From the NCBI GenBank assembly GCA_019671135.1, contig JAHRHY010000017.1:930001-994000 (forward strand): a stretch of DNA of 64,000 nucleotides, written 5' to 3'. This document shows, piece by piece, positions 10,245 through 21,262 of this stretch. The position numbers and the translations under genes are program-made. Below the pieces are notes generated by a model that was not told where the DNA came from, did no database searches, and saw nothing but the letters and a program-made list of their open reading frames with translations. Numbering within the stretch: the first letter of the stretch is position 1; every line of letters starts with the position of its first letter. This DNA comes from Linnemannia hyalina. Lineage: Eukaryota > Mortierellomycota > Mortierellomycetes > Mortierellales > Mortierellaceae.

Positions 10245-11654
10245 CTAGATACGAATGAAGGGGATTCTTCCCATCCTCTCCATCATTGACAACCTCCTCC
10301 TTCCTAACAAACTCTCCAACAACCGCTCGTCAGCAGCGCGTGGGTCCTTGGTCGCCCCAGGGCACCTTCCTTCATCATGTGTGGCTAGCGAAGCGCCACA
10401 CGGACAGAAACCATCGTGCGTGATGTAACCGTATCCTTGACTCCAGTCACCTCGGGGGCCTGTGTACTTGGATGTCTTGTCCTTGGCAGAGATGCCCTGG
10501 CTTTGTTCCCACGCGATCGTCGCGGAGCACCGAGGTTTCCAGATCAGCTCCGAGGCCTGCGCCTCCAGGTAGCCAACAAATTTGTGAAGGACTGTCTTGG
10601 CGATGGACATTGGGGTCCGGAAGACCGCGGACCATTCAGTCAACATGCTCAAGGGGGTGATGCCGCGGAGGAGATCCGACACATTCCACATCGGTTTCTC
10701 GTCTCGATCGGGAGCTGGACTACCGCTGTGCACGGCTCGAGCTCCACCGATGGAGGAAAATCCTCGCACATGATCCGCATCCGAAGGGGGCCACCAGTGT
10801 ATGGGTACTGGCCTCGGTACCTGACGACCTCTGTCCACCGCGCGTTTGTATTCTCGCTTCCTGGCTGCGTTGTAGCTGTTTGTCGCCTGCACACCCCACT
10901 CATTAATCTTGCCCATGGCCTCCTTCCAGATCTCAGTGGTGGTCTCAGCTGCCGAAGGGCATTTCCAGACGTGATCGTTATCCTCCTTCTCGAGCTCGCA
11001 TCGTCGGCACACGCATGTTGGGTACAGGTTGGGCTTGCGAGCCTGCATGGAGTTCAGAGTGGGCAGCATTCCATGCAGCTTTTTGATATGATGTGTGCGT
11101 TGGTGAGAGTCCTTGCTGTTGCTGTAAAAGGTGAAGACTGCGTGCCTGTCGTGGACATAAGCCAAGGTCGAGTTCCATTCCACGTCATCGATGTCAGGGA
11201 TCGCCCTCTTGACCCGCCTCTGTGACGTCCAGGCCTGATGGTGACGGATTGTCGATTGTTGTTTGAGGAGCTGACGTAGATCGATTTCAACAATCCCGCC
11301 GTAACAATGTGCAAAGGTCGTGATATCCGTCTGTTGAGTGAGATCCACCATCCAGGGCACTGAACCACTCTGTGCTGCCACCTTCGCCGCCTGATCCGCA
11401 AGTTCGTTTCCGTGGATGTTGCTGTGACCTTTGATCCACACCACCTCAACCCCGCCTGGCCGAGATTCCACAACCTGACAAAGCACCGCCCAGATACCCG
11501 CATATGTACTCCTGAATCGCTTCCTCGGTAAGGTGTCCCGACGATTCTTCACCAGGCGACTATACTGTTCCACCACTGACTGATTGTCCAGCTTGACCAC
11601 AATGTCCTGTTCCGGTGGTGCTGACAAGACGGATCGGGGGTCCTGATACAGGCG

Positions 11655-11655
<1 letters not shown>
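10245..11655 (-). mobile_element. 5'-truncated non-LTR retrotransposon, RNase H region
   Basis: About 470 codons stay open without a stop, but only the 3' part of a LINE-type ORF2 is left. The N-terminal part matches the second half of an RNase H domain: VVKLDNQS carries one catalytic Asp, VVWIKGHSNIHGNELAD carries the conserved His and the last catalytic Asp. The first Asp and the Glu are missing with the lost 5' end, so the domain cannot be active. A C-x2-C-x8-H-x4-C knuckle (CVCRRCELEKEDNDHVWKC) and an unassigned C-terminal region follow. The reverse transcriptase and endonuclease are absent. The truncated 5' edge abuts a 28-nt homopolymer (11657-11684) that reads as poly-A on the element's strand. 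Loss of the 5' end is usual for target-primed reverse transcription. Confidence 0.85.

Positions 11656-11656
<1 letters not shown>

Positions 11657-11684
<28 letters not shown>
11657..11684. repeat. poly-T (poly-A on minus) at element junction
   Basis: A 28-nt T homopolymer sits exactly at the upstream edge of the truncated retrotransposon and about 87 nt upstream of the tRNA-Asp gene. On the minus strand it reads as poly-A followed by the element body, so it may be the tail of an earlier insertion rather than of this copy. Confidence 0.7.
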
Positions 11685-11685
<1 letters not shown>

Positions 11686-11771
11686 GTGGCGTTGGTTTGC
11701 AGCACAAGCGATTGCAAATCTTCTAAATGATAACAAAGATATAAAAAAAACCGTTTTCACAAGAAGCTCAT

Positions 11772-11843
11772 TCCTTGGTAGTATAGTGGTGAGTATCTCC
11801 GCCTGTCACGCGGAAGACCGGGGTTCAATTCCCCGCCAGGGAG
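11772..11843 (+). tRNA. tRNA-Asp (GTC)
   Basis: A 72-nt cloverleaf can be folded by eye. The 7-bp acceptor stem pairs TCCTTGG with CCAGGGA (one G-T wobble), with discriminator G. The anticodon stem CCGC/GCGG encloses the loop CTGTCAC, giving anticodon GTC at 11805-11807. The T arm has the GGGTTCAATTCCCC stem-loop with the B-box. There is no intron and CCA is not encoded. The retrotransposon remnant lies immediately upstream. Confidence 0.96.
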
Positions 11844-11849
11844 CTTATC

Positions 11850-15162: not shown

Positions 15163-16209
15163 TTAGAATCCAAGAGCCTCGTTGACCAAAAGAACCTGGA
15201 TACGTCCAGGAGCGAAAGGGTTCTGCTGAAGCAACAACTCGTAATGGCTCATGGAGGTGCCGGGGGCCTTGAAGACCTCTCTCGAGAAGGCACCAGCGGC
15301 GGGAATGCACCACTCGACGGTACGCTGGTAAGCCTCGTTGACATCCTTGACAATCTTGTTGGAGCCAACAACAACGATAACGTTCTTGGCACCATAGGCA
15401 ACACCTCCAACCTTGGAACCGCTCAAGTCACCGTGGGCCATAGCACCGGTCTCGGTGACGGCGGCCATGGAGGTGAGGAAGTAGTCGACGGTGGTGCCGA
15501 TGGTGCGGCGGAGCTCGGCCTGCTTTGCGAGATCCTTCTCGGCGAGAATGGTCGAACGAACGTTGTTGTAGGGGGTCTCTCCGATGATGTAGTCGATGAA
15601 TCCAATCTGTTGATGGGGTTGGTAGAGAGGTGATGGGATGAAGGTTAGTATGGTGAACAAATAGAGTTGAGGAGTGAGGGAGTGATCTTGATTTTTTTTG
15701 TCGGGTAAATATCATCCGTCAGAGAGTGGATACTCAGTCCACTTTCTTTTGATCCATCTCCTGCTTCTTTTTTTCCTCCTTTGAACTTAAGCAATGACAA
15801 AAAGGATATATCAATAATGCTTACCTCCTCAAGAGTGGTGCTGTGGGCAACGTTCAAGGAAGCACCCTATTATTTCAAAAGTTATCATATATGAAAACGT
15901 ATTAGTCGATCAATCTCTCACCGGGAGGCAAAGCAAAAGCACACAACAAGTTACTTCAACGACCAGCACAAGAGAAGCAAAACTCACATCGGGGATGAGG
16001 GTCTTGAGGGTCTCAAAGGCCTCATCACGGTTCTGGGCAACGGTGACCTTGAAGCCCTTGGACTCGAGGGCAGCGCGGGCAGACTCGAAGCGCTCAGGCG
16101 AGGCGGCCTTGGAGTAGGCACCGTCCTTGAGGTGGGCGATCTTCTCGTCAGTCTTGAGGAGAGCCTCGAGAGTGGTGTGGGCGTAGGAGTTGGCAGGGCG
16201 GGTCGACAT
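15163..16209 (-). CDS. LUD-domain protein
   Basis: Exons 16209-15988, 15866-15825 and 15606-15163 give 235 aa, all phase 0. The joined middle reads IPDGASLNVAHSTTLEEIGFID, where the tiny 42-nt exon supplies the GASLN..HSTTLEE block typical of LUD/DUF162 proteins. SNKIVKDVNEA and GAKNVIVVVG follow in the C-terminal half. In bacteria LUD proteins are LutB/LutC lactate-oxidation subunits. Here the protein is a lone LUD fold with no ferredoxin-type Cys clusters, so its reaction is unknown. The correct in-frame fit of the 14-codon exon is the main support for the model. The gene lies between the convergent lipase and the viral RdRp insertion, with no functional link apparent. Confidence 0.85.
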
Positions 16210-17027: not shown

Positions 17028-18818
17028 CTACTCCTCATTCTCACGGGCGAGGACGGTTATGCGGTACCATTGCTCGATCGTAATACGGCAAGGCAGAGGA
17101 GGGAGTCGTCCCATGTTCCAGTAATCCCTCGTCACCATCTTCTCCATCGACTTGGGCCAAAGAGTGGGCCGTTCAAAATCCAGCGTCTCGAGATAGTCCA
17201 GATACTTCTCCAGCCATAGTTGTGTCTCTGGGTTGCCCGCCGCGTTTAGATACAGTCCAATCGCTCGTAGCCATGAATGTTCTGGGGCATACTCGCCATA
17301 CTTAGGGAACATTAGGCTTAGATACGTCTCCTTGAAGGGCCGGTAGGGAACGACAATCTTGGGCGCGTATGGGCCATCACCCCAGCGTTGGTGTCGAAAG
17401 TAGGCGCCCAAGAATTGGACGCCCTGGAAGGGAATCGTACCAGGCAGGCTGTCGTCCATGAGTTGTCGAGTGCTGAAAGACTTCTTGCCAGACCAGTCAA
17501 TGTTAAAGCAGTCCAGGACCACTGCTGCAAGAGTCTCCTTGGTGAGGTAGACCCAATTCATCTCGAGTGCCATGACCATGTCATCTCCTAGGACGTCGAT
17601 CTCGCACTCCATAAGGATCATATCGATACCTATGGCTCCCCTGCGCTCCTCGGCCTTGACAATCAGAGCAGTGTATCCCAAGAACATGGTGATGATGCTC
17701 TGAACTAGAGTGTTGAAGCAATTTCCACTGGTAGTGCCGACATGTTTCTGCATCCGGATCCCATCATCGCGACAAATCACCACCTCCACCAAGGACTCGT
17801 AGACAAACGACCACAGCGTGTCGTACTTGGGGTCCATCCCTCCCACAAACTGCTCCCTCAGGATCAACAGCGCCTCCTTGACCAACCAGCCATCGATCGC
17901 GGCATCAAACTTTTTGGCGTCAAAGCAATGGTAGACCGCATGGCGGGTCATCTTGTTCACAAACTTCTCAGATCCGCCATGGTACCAACTCTGTCCAATA
18001 TGAATCGGCCATCGTTCGTCCAGGTACGCCGCCGTCAATGGTTGTTCCAGCGCCCCCAGGATCAACAGATCGCGATGACTCAACATCAAGATCAATCTGC
18101 CCATCGAGATGTTATCCTTGTCTACATCAACTCGTCCGGCCTGACCTCCAGCACCTCTCTCAATCAACTTGCCCTTCCCACCCAATCGAGTGTCATGAGG
18201 TTGAACAATCCTCCCATCGAGCAAGGTATCCCAGACGATCCCTGCATCACTCAACGCCATTGGATGGGCCTGGTGCCGAGACTTGAGCTTTAACCGCGCA
18301 TAGTCCAGTCCCGCAAACTTGGACCCGTCATAACGAACTGTCGACAGTGTGAGCTTGGTCGGCATGGGCAGTTTCTCGGGCAGGGCCATGAGTGCAGACA
18401 CGTGTCGGACAGCTCGACGGAAGGCTCGTTCGTACCTTTGGGGCATGGGCCTCGGTTTTCGGTTGAACAATCGGAGATGGTTCATCTGGATGGGCGAACA
18501 GGGCTTGACATAGTCGTAGTGGGAGACATCAACGCCGGCGGGCAAAGGAGGAGGGCACATCTCGCTGAATTCTCGGGTATGAGGGTCCTGCTCGACATAG
18601 TCTATTATCTTGTCCATGGGCTTGTAGAACCTCTTGTTCTTGTGGAACGTGAAGTGAACAAACTCGCTCTGGAGTTCCGCTCGAGTCCTGTTAAGTTCGG
18701 GTAGGTTGAATAGTGGCGGTCCTTTATGGACGACAGGTGGTCGTCGGTGAAAAGGGGTTTGGGAGATATGCATTTGACTGATAAGATCGGCCAAATCGAT
18801 TCCATTGAGAAAAGCCAT
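17028..18818 (-). CDS. endogenous partitivirus-like RNA-dependent RNA polymerase
   Basis: A 596-codon uninterrupted ORF, with no intron, encodes a palm-domain RNA-dependent RNA polymerase of the dsRNA mycovirus kind. Motif A is CFDAKKFD (D300, D305). Motif B is GTTSGNCFNTLVQS (S364-G365), with Asn where most partitiviruses have Thr. Motif C is VLGDDMV (G411-D412-D413). Lysines 445-446 fit motif D. Upstream, SMGRLILMLSHRDLLILGA and WPIHIG resemble the motif F region and the F-A linker. Downstream, QFLGAYFRHQ and the LMFPKYGEY block resemble the C-terminal partitivirus region. Length fits Partitiviridae (about 420-660 aa). Because it lies in nuclear DNA between intron-containing fungal genes, it is an endogenous viral element. 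No frameshift or stop breaks it. An in-frame upstream extension of 61 codons is hydrophobic, low complexity and probably leader. Amalgavirus-like origin is an alternative. Confidence 0.9.
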   Translation of the reverse strand: MAFLNGIDLADLISQMHISQTPFHRRPPVVHKGPPLFNLPELNRTRAELQSEFVHFTFHKNKRFYKPMDKIIDYVEQDPHTREFSEMCPPPLPAGVDVSHYDYVKPCSPIQMNHLRLFNRKPRPMPQRYERAFRRAVRHVSALMALPEKLPMPTKLTLSTVRYDGSKFAGLDYARLKLKSRHQAHPMALSDAGIVWDTLLDGRIVQPHDTRLGGKGKLIERGAGGQAGRVDVDKDNISMGRLILMLSHRDLLILGALEQPLTAAYLDERWPIHIGQSWYHGGSEKFVNKMTRHAVYHCFDAKKFDAAIDGWLVKEALLILREQFVGGMDPKYDTLWSFVYESLVEVVICRDDGIRMQKHVGTTSGNCFNTLVQSIITMFLGYTALIVKAEERRGAIGIDMILMECEIDVLGDDMVMALEMNWVYLTKETLAAVVLDCFNIDWSGKKSFSTRQLMDDSLPGTIPFQGVQFLGAYFRHQRWGDGPYAPKIVVPYRPFKETYLSLMFPKYGEYAPEHSWLRAIGLYLNAAGNPETQLWLEKYLDYLETLDFERPTLWPKSMEKMVTRDYWNMGRLPPLPCRITIEQWYRITVLARENEE

Positions 18819-19326: not shown

Positions 19327-21262
19327 CTAGTCCAACCGAGGGAATGCCCCTGGAAAAGTTGAGGAGCTTCTCTGTTGCTGCTGCTGTTGCTGCTGCTGTT
19401 GTTGCTGTGCGTCTTCCTCAGGTACCAAAGAGAACCGACATGTCGGGCAAGTTGCACTTGTCTTGAGCCAAGGCTTGATGCAGTCCTCGTGGAAAATGTG
19501 TTTGCACTTCAATTGAGTGCATGTATCCTGGCTCTCAAACTCGTCTTTGCATACACTGCACTCGGTTTTTGCATCTATGCAGTTGGGATAGAGATGGAAG
19601 GTAAGAGAACAAGCAAAAAAGTATTAGATGATGTATCCATTTTTTTTTTTTTTTTTTTTTTTTTTTGAAATCAAATGCGTATTCGAGAGGCTGTGGTCAA
19701 AACTGTGAAGGAAAAATAAGAACTTACCAAGTTCCTCAGATGTGAGTGTATGTTGGGGTAACTCGTTAATCGCCTCCTCTGACAATGCCACAGGCCCATT
19801 CTGACGACTACGAGTTCACACACATACACACACACACAAAAAGTCTTGGATTAGAACGATACGGTCAATTGATCCATAATCAACGAGCAGCTCATTACTC
19901 ACAGAATAAAAGAGTCGAAGGAAGCAAAGGACGAGGTACATACCTTTGCATCTCCATCATTTGCGTGATCACATCATCGAGTCCTCCTTGGCCAAAGACA
20001 TAGTCTCCTGGATTTCCGACCATGTTGAACAGCCCTCCGAATCCTCCCAAACCCGGCTGACCGCCTTCGTTCATGAAGCGTAGCTCGAGTCCGATACGTT
20101 CCAACAGGCTATGATTAGAACGAGTAAAAAATAAGAATGACAAACAACAGCAAGTCAGCATGACATTGTCACAGGGAGGGGCGAAAAAAGGAGAGTTTTA
20201 TGGTGCGTCGATGTGTCCCATATTCGTGACGAACAAAGAAGTGTACGGTTGATCCTCGCCCAGTAGAACAATTCAATCCTCTTTGTTTGCTTCTTTCTTG
20301 TGTCATTCTTTTCGGTGTCATTCCACTCTGCAATCTGTTAATGGCATACCTTGAAATGGACGTTGGTGGTCCCTGTGGTTGTTGACGAGGTTCCGTATCC
20401 TGTTCGACATCTAGCATCTCTACATCTTCGTCATGGGAATCCGTGGCAGCGGCGCGAGCGACATTGGTAGTGGTGTTTCCTGAAGCAGATCGAGCCGCCT
20501 GAGAATTGAATAGGCTGAAAGGGCTCGTTGCGGCTCCTGCTTCGGTTCCTGTAGGGTATCCGCCGGGCGATTGTACCTGTGCCTGTTGTTGCCGCTGGTT
20601 GACTGTCATGGGCGCACTGGAGAGGAGGTGGATGACGCGAAGCAGATCCTCCAGTCCTACGGTCTCCTGTCCTTCCTGTCCATCATCGTCGTCGTCGCCT
20701 TGTTCGTGTCCAGCTTCCACAAAGGACCGAGGGTCGTTGTCCTCCTCAATCTAAAATACGTCGCAATAGCGGGCCATTATGACAGGAAGGGGTTAGGTGC
20801 AACACTTTGTTCGCAATCCTGCTGGGCATATCCTGTCTGAGGCCATATTATCGGGGCGATTATTTGGTTGTACTTTTGCCACGCCTGTTTCCTGTTGCGG
20901 TGAAAGATGTACCTTTTCGACAAACTCGCTTTGGCACTCAGGACAGAGAGGGTGCGGGACCATCATAGGGGTGATCTCGGCAGAGCACTAAACGATTCCA
21001 AGAGGAATGAATGACAAAGGTAAAACAAGTAGAAGGATTTGTTAAAATAACACGACGCTGTTGCTTCATTGTTACATTACACAAGCAGCTTTTGAGCAAG
21101 CTTGGCATTTTTTCTTCTGTGTAAGTTTGGTTGGTTCCTGATTAGTTTTCGACACCAGTCCCGAGCGGAATAAGACGAGGCACTTGCCTGATGGCACCAG
21201 TGATCTCGACGAGACCGTGGGGCTGTTGTTGGTGGGGTGTTTTCAGCGAGCGGGCTGTTCAT
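19327..21262 (-). CDS. RING-H2 E3 ubiquitin ligase (RNF115/RNF126-like)
   Basis: Six exons (21262-21188, 20987-20913, 20750-20350, 20108-19944, 19807-19728, 19574-19327) give 347 aa in one frame. The N-terminus is a BCA2-type zinc finger, C23-x2-C26 and C40-x2-C43 (WCHQCSAEI ... LCPEC). An acidic/Gln linker leads to DYVFGQGGLDDVITQMM, conserved in this family. The C-terminal RING-H2 has C271, C274, C289, H291, H294, C297, C308 and C311. It is expected to recruit an E2 and ubiquitinate targets in the cytosol; the N-terminal finger binds ubiquitin in relatives. A run of 12 Gln follows the RING. The first intron starts with GC (CAG|GCAAGT) rather than GT; only this donor keeps the zinc finger in frame. 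The next intron of note holds a 27-nt T tract. Confidence 0.92.
19372..19410. repeat. CTG/CAG trinucleotide repeat
   Basis: Imperfect CTG/TTG repeat on the plus strand that encodes the 12-residue poly-Gln run near the C-terminus of the RING-H2 protein. Confidence 0.85.
19640..19666. repeat. 27-nt poly-T tract in an intron
   Basis: T homopolymer inside the last intron of the RING-H2 gene. On the transcribed strand it is A-rich, so it is not the splice polypyrimidine tract. Confidence 0.85.

Follow-up and report, generated by a model that had tools for sequence, protein, structure and literature searches.

An intact viral-type polymerase gene between cellular genes

We analysed a window of 64,000 nucleotides from Linnemannia hyalina (Mortierellaceae; contig JAHRHY010000017.1, positions 930,001 to 994,000), which contains a gene for a virus-derived RNA-dependent RNA polymerase (RdRp). 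Its reading frame has no internal stop, and the only Pfam family matched by the protein in a scan up to E 1 was RdRP_1 (PF00680; E 2.3e-14). The first-pass annotation of this DNA had described an intact frame with polymerase motifs A, B and C, located in a chromosome between cellular genes, and both points are borne out by the window sequence: the three motifs are present, and the frame is flanked by a RING gene on one side and a LUD-domain gene on the other (Table 1). PF02589 was found in a close relative (P0117) of the LUD-domain neighbour. The RdRp gene exists as a single copy in the genome (51.5 Mb, 50 contigs), 947 kb into its contig (C9). A comparison of codon usage with a host gene and two further exons of the host proved too noisy to be informative, the host sequences correlating with one another at only 0.05.

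Table 1. Features of the RdRp locus, in window coordinates
Feature	Position	Strand	Remarks
Endogenous virus-derived RdRp gene	17028..18818	-	596 codons, intron-free frame
Motif A (residues 296-308; D300, D305)	17895..17933	-	both Asp in 31/31 fungal sequences
Motif B (residues 358-376; S364-G365, N366)	17691..17747	-	N366 is His in 30/30 virus-like sequences
Motif C (residues 408-415; GDD at 411-413)	17574..17597	-	GDD in 30/31 fungal sequences
RNF115/126-type RING E3 gene (5'-side neighbour)	19327..21262	-	several exons, structure read by eye
LUD-domain gene (3'-side neighbour)	15163..16209	-	three exons, read by eye

Relatives and predicted structure

A protein search, limited to annotated proteins no shorter than 0.55 times the query, listed 71 proteins. 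Thirty of them (P0001-P0030), with 54-97% identity in an alignment of 66 sequences (A1), joined the window protein in one branch of 31 fungal sequences (support 100), and all ten members sampled for a careful tree of 28 sequences also grouped together (100/100). By name, 27 of these 30 relatives could be assigned, all to genera of the Mortierellaceae (checked against the taxonomy). The remaining proteins came mostly from contigs of 1.3-3.2 kb or from named bipartite or curvula-like mycoviruses, the latter with 33-45% identity to the window protein in BLASTP; the others outside the clade belonged to Phycomyces, Apophysomyces and two longer contigs (P0051 and P0052). The relationship with Curvularia thermal tolerance virus is represented by P0071 (45% identity over 46% of the query), a fragment that was kept out of the trees. 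Alignment A1 excluded P0049, P0059, P0063, P0064, P0065 and P0066, five of them shorter than 480 amino acids and P0065, with 726, without good reason. Thirty sequences were classed as virus-like from a virus-sized contig or from their name, 12 of them carrying a virus name.

A viral origin is upheld. The annotation's more specific proposal of a partitivirus-like polymerase has to be replaced, since both the protein search and the structure matches placed Curvulaviridae-like bipartite mycoviruses closest. No partitivirus appeared among the names displayed for part of the 71 matches, and in the structure comparisons named partitiviruses showed 14-16% identity and template modelling (TM) scores of 0.62-0.66, compared with 31-45% identity for curvula-like viruses. 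Partitiviridae membership was thus rejected on these two lists of matches, the trees having been built from alignments free of partitivirus sequences. Membership in the cellular QDE-1/RDR polymerases, the grouping that would have spoken against the annotation, was checked and likewise rejected: the protein has PF00680 and no match to PF05183, and the PF05183 gene of this genome sits elsewhere (contig C48). Curvulaviridae have a segmented double-stranded RNA (dsRNA) genome including a second segment. The copy studied here has an RdRp related to that of Curvularia thermal tolerance virus and is itself a locus in a DNA contig; proteins of the second segment were not searched for. Searches of the genome for PF02123 and PF05919 gave no match, but the controls also matched nowhere, so that absence is not established, and a scan of viral contigs with alignment A1 gave 26 pattern matches, none confirmed.

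An AlphaFold2 model computed from alignment A1 reached a mean predicted local distance difference test (pLDDT) score of 88.7, with values below 50 at residues 1-7, 14-32 and 225-233; as modelled, the window protein has a well-defined RdRp fold. Among solved structures, the elongation complex of a polymycovirus RdRp had the best Z score (28.7, over 493 residues), on a par with norovirus polymerases; coronavirus polymerases topped the Foldseek list. The best viral model was the RdRp of Sclerotium rolfsii dsRNA virus 1 (TM 0.86). Searching the PDB by sequence gave no match up to E 1.

A shared RING neighbour and a conserved protein

In 12 of the 27 named relatives, from Podila to Linnemannia, the RING gene carries the locus tag immediately before or after that of the RdRp gene. 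Judged from its size, the same longest contig bears both genes in these 12 genomes, and likewise in Lobosporangium. The LUD gene has an adjacent tag in four relatives and lies two or six tags away in two more. Because the RING neighbour is common to these 12 relatives across genera, the locus indicates, at the level of gene order, a single, old and vertically inherited integration. Of the two options left by the first-pass annotation, a young insertion or a cellular gene kept by selection, the former is therefore excluded and the latter gains support from protein conservation.

This conservation is best seen against the neighbouring gene. Among 14 genomes having both genes (L. hyalina and Lobosporangium included), RdRp identity exceeded RING identity in 88 of the 91 pairs, with means of 69.0% and 56.6%, respectively, and a correlation of r 0.77. 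RdRp conservation peaks in polymerase motifs A to D, and nine residues (K217, R241, R249, D300, D305, S364, G365, N369 and K446), some of which we take to belong to motifs F and D, are invariant in all 31 sequences. These comparisons support that the gene is kept by selection for its protein; since the metal-binding and other polymerase residues have been retained, catalysis is suggested to be what selection keeps.

Seven positions distinguish the fungal clade from the virus-like sequences: 152, 257, 335, 366, 368, 506 and 525. Each is fixed in the 31 fungal sequences (30 at position 525), against a different commonest residue in 26 to 30 of the 30 virus-like ones. At residue 366, adjoining the Ser-Gly pair of motif B, every fungal sequence has Asn in place of the viral His, and at residue 506 the Glu of the virus-like sequences is Lys in the clade. 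All seven fungal states are common to the deepest sequence (P0030) and one from Podila. The Phycomyces and Apophysomyces proteins have none of them, and P0051 and P0052 share only Phe 368.

The Phycomyces and Apophysomyces copies

The Phycomyces and Apophysomyces proteins grouped with two contigs of ~2 kb, classed as viral from their size, apart from the Mortierellaceae (support 97; 100/98 in the 28-sequence tree). A single capture for the Mortierellaceae and Phycomyces/Apophysomyces, as proposed before the split of Mucorales and Mortierellales (Myers et al. 2020, PMC7482067), was not rejected in a quick tree of 65 sequences (approximately unbiased test, p-AU 0.057) and was rejected in the careful one (p-AU 0.0007). 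Joining these two together with P0051 and P0052 to the Mortierellaceae clade was also rejected (p 0.0001). As the 28 sequences were picked from the 66 after the first tree had been viewed, we regard a separate capture in the Phycomyces/Apophysomyces lineage as likely from these trees, not proven. P0051 (longest contig 146 kb) and P0052 (13 kb) lie outside the Mortierellaceae clade, near virus-sized sequences; the former has GDE replacing GDD and the latter a long repetitive C-terminal tail.

Probable capture of the polymerase and its possible function

These observations make it probable that a curvulavirus-like RdRp was inserted once and is now a host gene selected for RNA-templated RNA polymerase activity. 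The RdRp of a curvulavirus-like dsRNA virus would have been reverse transcribed and inserted beside the RING E3 gene in a fungus from which much of the Mortierellaceae descends, then inherited as a host gene whose polymerase activity would be under selection. The protein would polymerise RNA in the cell, and its product might feed RNA silencing or interfere with related viruses. Such a silencing or antiviral role, taken alone, is a tentative suggestion. Since the genome contains a single RdRP gene of the QDE-1 type, genes of the Argonaute type and two strong matches to Dicer, dsRNA made by this enzyme could enter silencing; alternatively, the enzyme might be directed against related viruses. 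With an intact viral RdRp maintained in one place while a fungal family diversified, it becomes directly testable whether a viral replicase can be made into a cell's own RNA-copying enzyme. RNA data from Mortierella that include this sequence also do not necessarily point to infection.

Several points weigh against this scenario. The RING record listed for M. hygrophila is partial and on a different contig, and the placement of the Podila RING sequence has weak support (74) in the RING tree, from whose alignment P0076 was left out. For Actinomortierella, Benniella, Modicella and Entomortierella parvispora, RING sequences were listed and no RdRp so named, a listing that unannotated, unlabelled or clustered copies would escape; these taxa may lack the gene or be able to do without it, which makes it look accessory, not essential, within the Mortierellaceae. 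The RING sequences of Actinomortierella and Benniella fall in a paralogue branch of the RING tree. Actinomortierella is sister to the other Mortierellomycota sampled in one phylogeny, in the part available to us (PMC11134847), so its lineage may predate the capture. The Lobosporangium transversale gene model (P0026) lacks seven residues covering the GDD within an otherwise well-aligned region, which may reflect either an error in the gene model or a true loss. The case for selection is built on conservation at the protein level. Under neutrality, ~224 stops would be expected over the clade tree (6.5 changes per site) and none occurs in the listed proteins, an argument for selection that is biased by the annotation and length limits of the listing and given little weight alone because stop-bearing copies could hardly be listed.

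Alternatively, the protein might be a decoy or dominant-negative restriction factor that binds viral RNA or replication partners and blocks related viruses without catalysis. Integrated RNA-virus genes have been proposed to confer resistance to related viruses (in the part of PMC6166632 available to us), and the patchy presence of the gene would suit an accessory defence function, as would a true loss of the GDD in Lobosporangium. A decoy, however, needs neither metal-binding Asp nor other polymerase residues, yet these are kept in all 31 sequences apart from that one GDD gap; the preservation of catalytic residues argues against a purely decoy function, which we consider unlikely. A more elaborate version of the capture scenario, in which the virus-derived enzyme is an active second silencing polymerase beside the QDE-1-type one, the seven substitutions, one of them in the motif B loop, mark the passage from viral replicase to cellular synthesis of dsRNA, and a related polymerase entered Mucorales by a capture of its own, seems rather doubtful. 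Non-retroviral viral copies can yield small RNAs in other hosts, and the frame could have been kept by chance or for such a non-coding role; given that amino-acid conservation exceeds that of the cellular neighbour in nearly all pairs and peaks in the polymerase motifs, this is very improbable. Repeated recent integrations, or a co-assembled host-specific exogenous virus mimicking the host phylogeny, would not readily yield an identical RING neighbour in 12 tagged genomes or a single-copy locus deep inside a contig; the tagged genomes already contradict this explanation, provided that their tags are not misleading, and it is hardly credible.

Other elements in the window and genome

The window also contains an open frame encoding an RNase H domain (10245-11756, minus strand), a copy of a repeat that resembles a long interspersed nuclear element (LINE) and gave at least 87 matches. 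A tRNA-Asp gene (11772-11844, plus strand) lies ~15 bases from the start of this frame, on the opposite strand. Of 16 regions surrounding further copies, selected among the better matches, 14 contained a tRNA gene, versus none of 16 offset control regions; in all 14 it was on the opposite strand and located 5' to the copy, and many isoacceptors were represented. The gap between the frame match and the tRNA gene ranged from 71 bases to 4.4 kb, the matches beginning at varying points of the element. By analogy with TRE5 of Dictyostelium, the element looks like a tRNA-gene-targeting retrotransposon lacking long terminal repeats, a type for which a 2018 review names no fungal case in the part available to us (PMC5911963). 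Nine Piwi-domain matches of equal length (profile 231-299), located on contigs C1, C4, C12, C18, C22, C49 and C50, each hold two TGA and one TAG and are perhaps an Argonaute piece travelling in a repeat.

Comparison with known systems

The window gene is an orthologue of a published family of endogenous Mortierellaceae RdRps, with which it shares homology within one fungal clade and a chromosomal site between cellular genes. Myers et al. reported it in 2020 as a novel gene or endogenous lineage that is expressed, with transcripts of relatives (PMC7482067), and a 2025 paper reported a clade of 64 sequences from Mortierellaceae that tracks its hosts (Virus Evol veaf074, PMC12548735), so the system is not undescribed, as the first-pass annotation had supposed. 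These Mortierellales/Phycomycetaceae genes agree with ours in family, host group and recognisable RdRp domain. In the portions available to us, the two papers give no shared gene neighbour, residue-level analysis or function, and relative to them the shared RING site, the seven fixed substitutions and the arguments for a second capture appear to be new; our trees differ from the single capture of Myers et al. in placing Phycomyces and Apophysomyces elsewhere. The RdRps of Curvulaviridae and bipartite mycoviruses (for example those of Trichoderma harzianum and Cryphonectria parasitica, and Curvularia thermal tolerance virus) have the same motifs and fold, whereas these viruses are exogenous, with dsRNA segments of ~2 kb, and differ from the fungal gene at the seven positions. 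Totivirus-derived yeast genes are likewise RNA-virus genes in fungal chromosomes, from another virus family and in other fungi (PMC2805616, in part). Finally, NlToEVE14 of planthoppers is, in the available part of its description (PMC10636211), also a co-opted non-retroviral viral gene, whose importance was shown by knock-out, but in an insect host and of toti-like origin.
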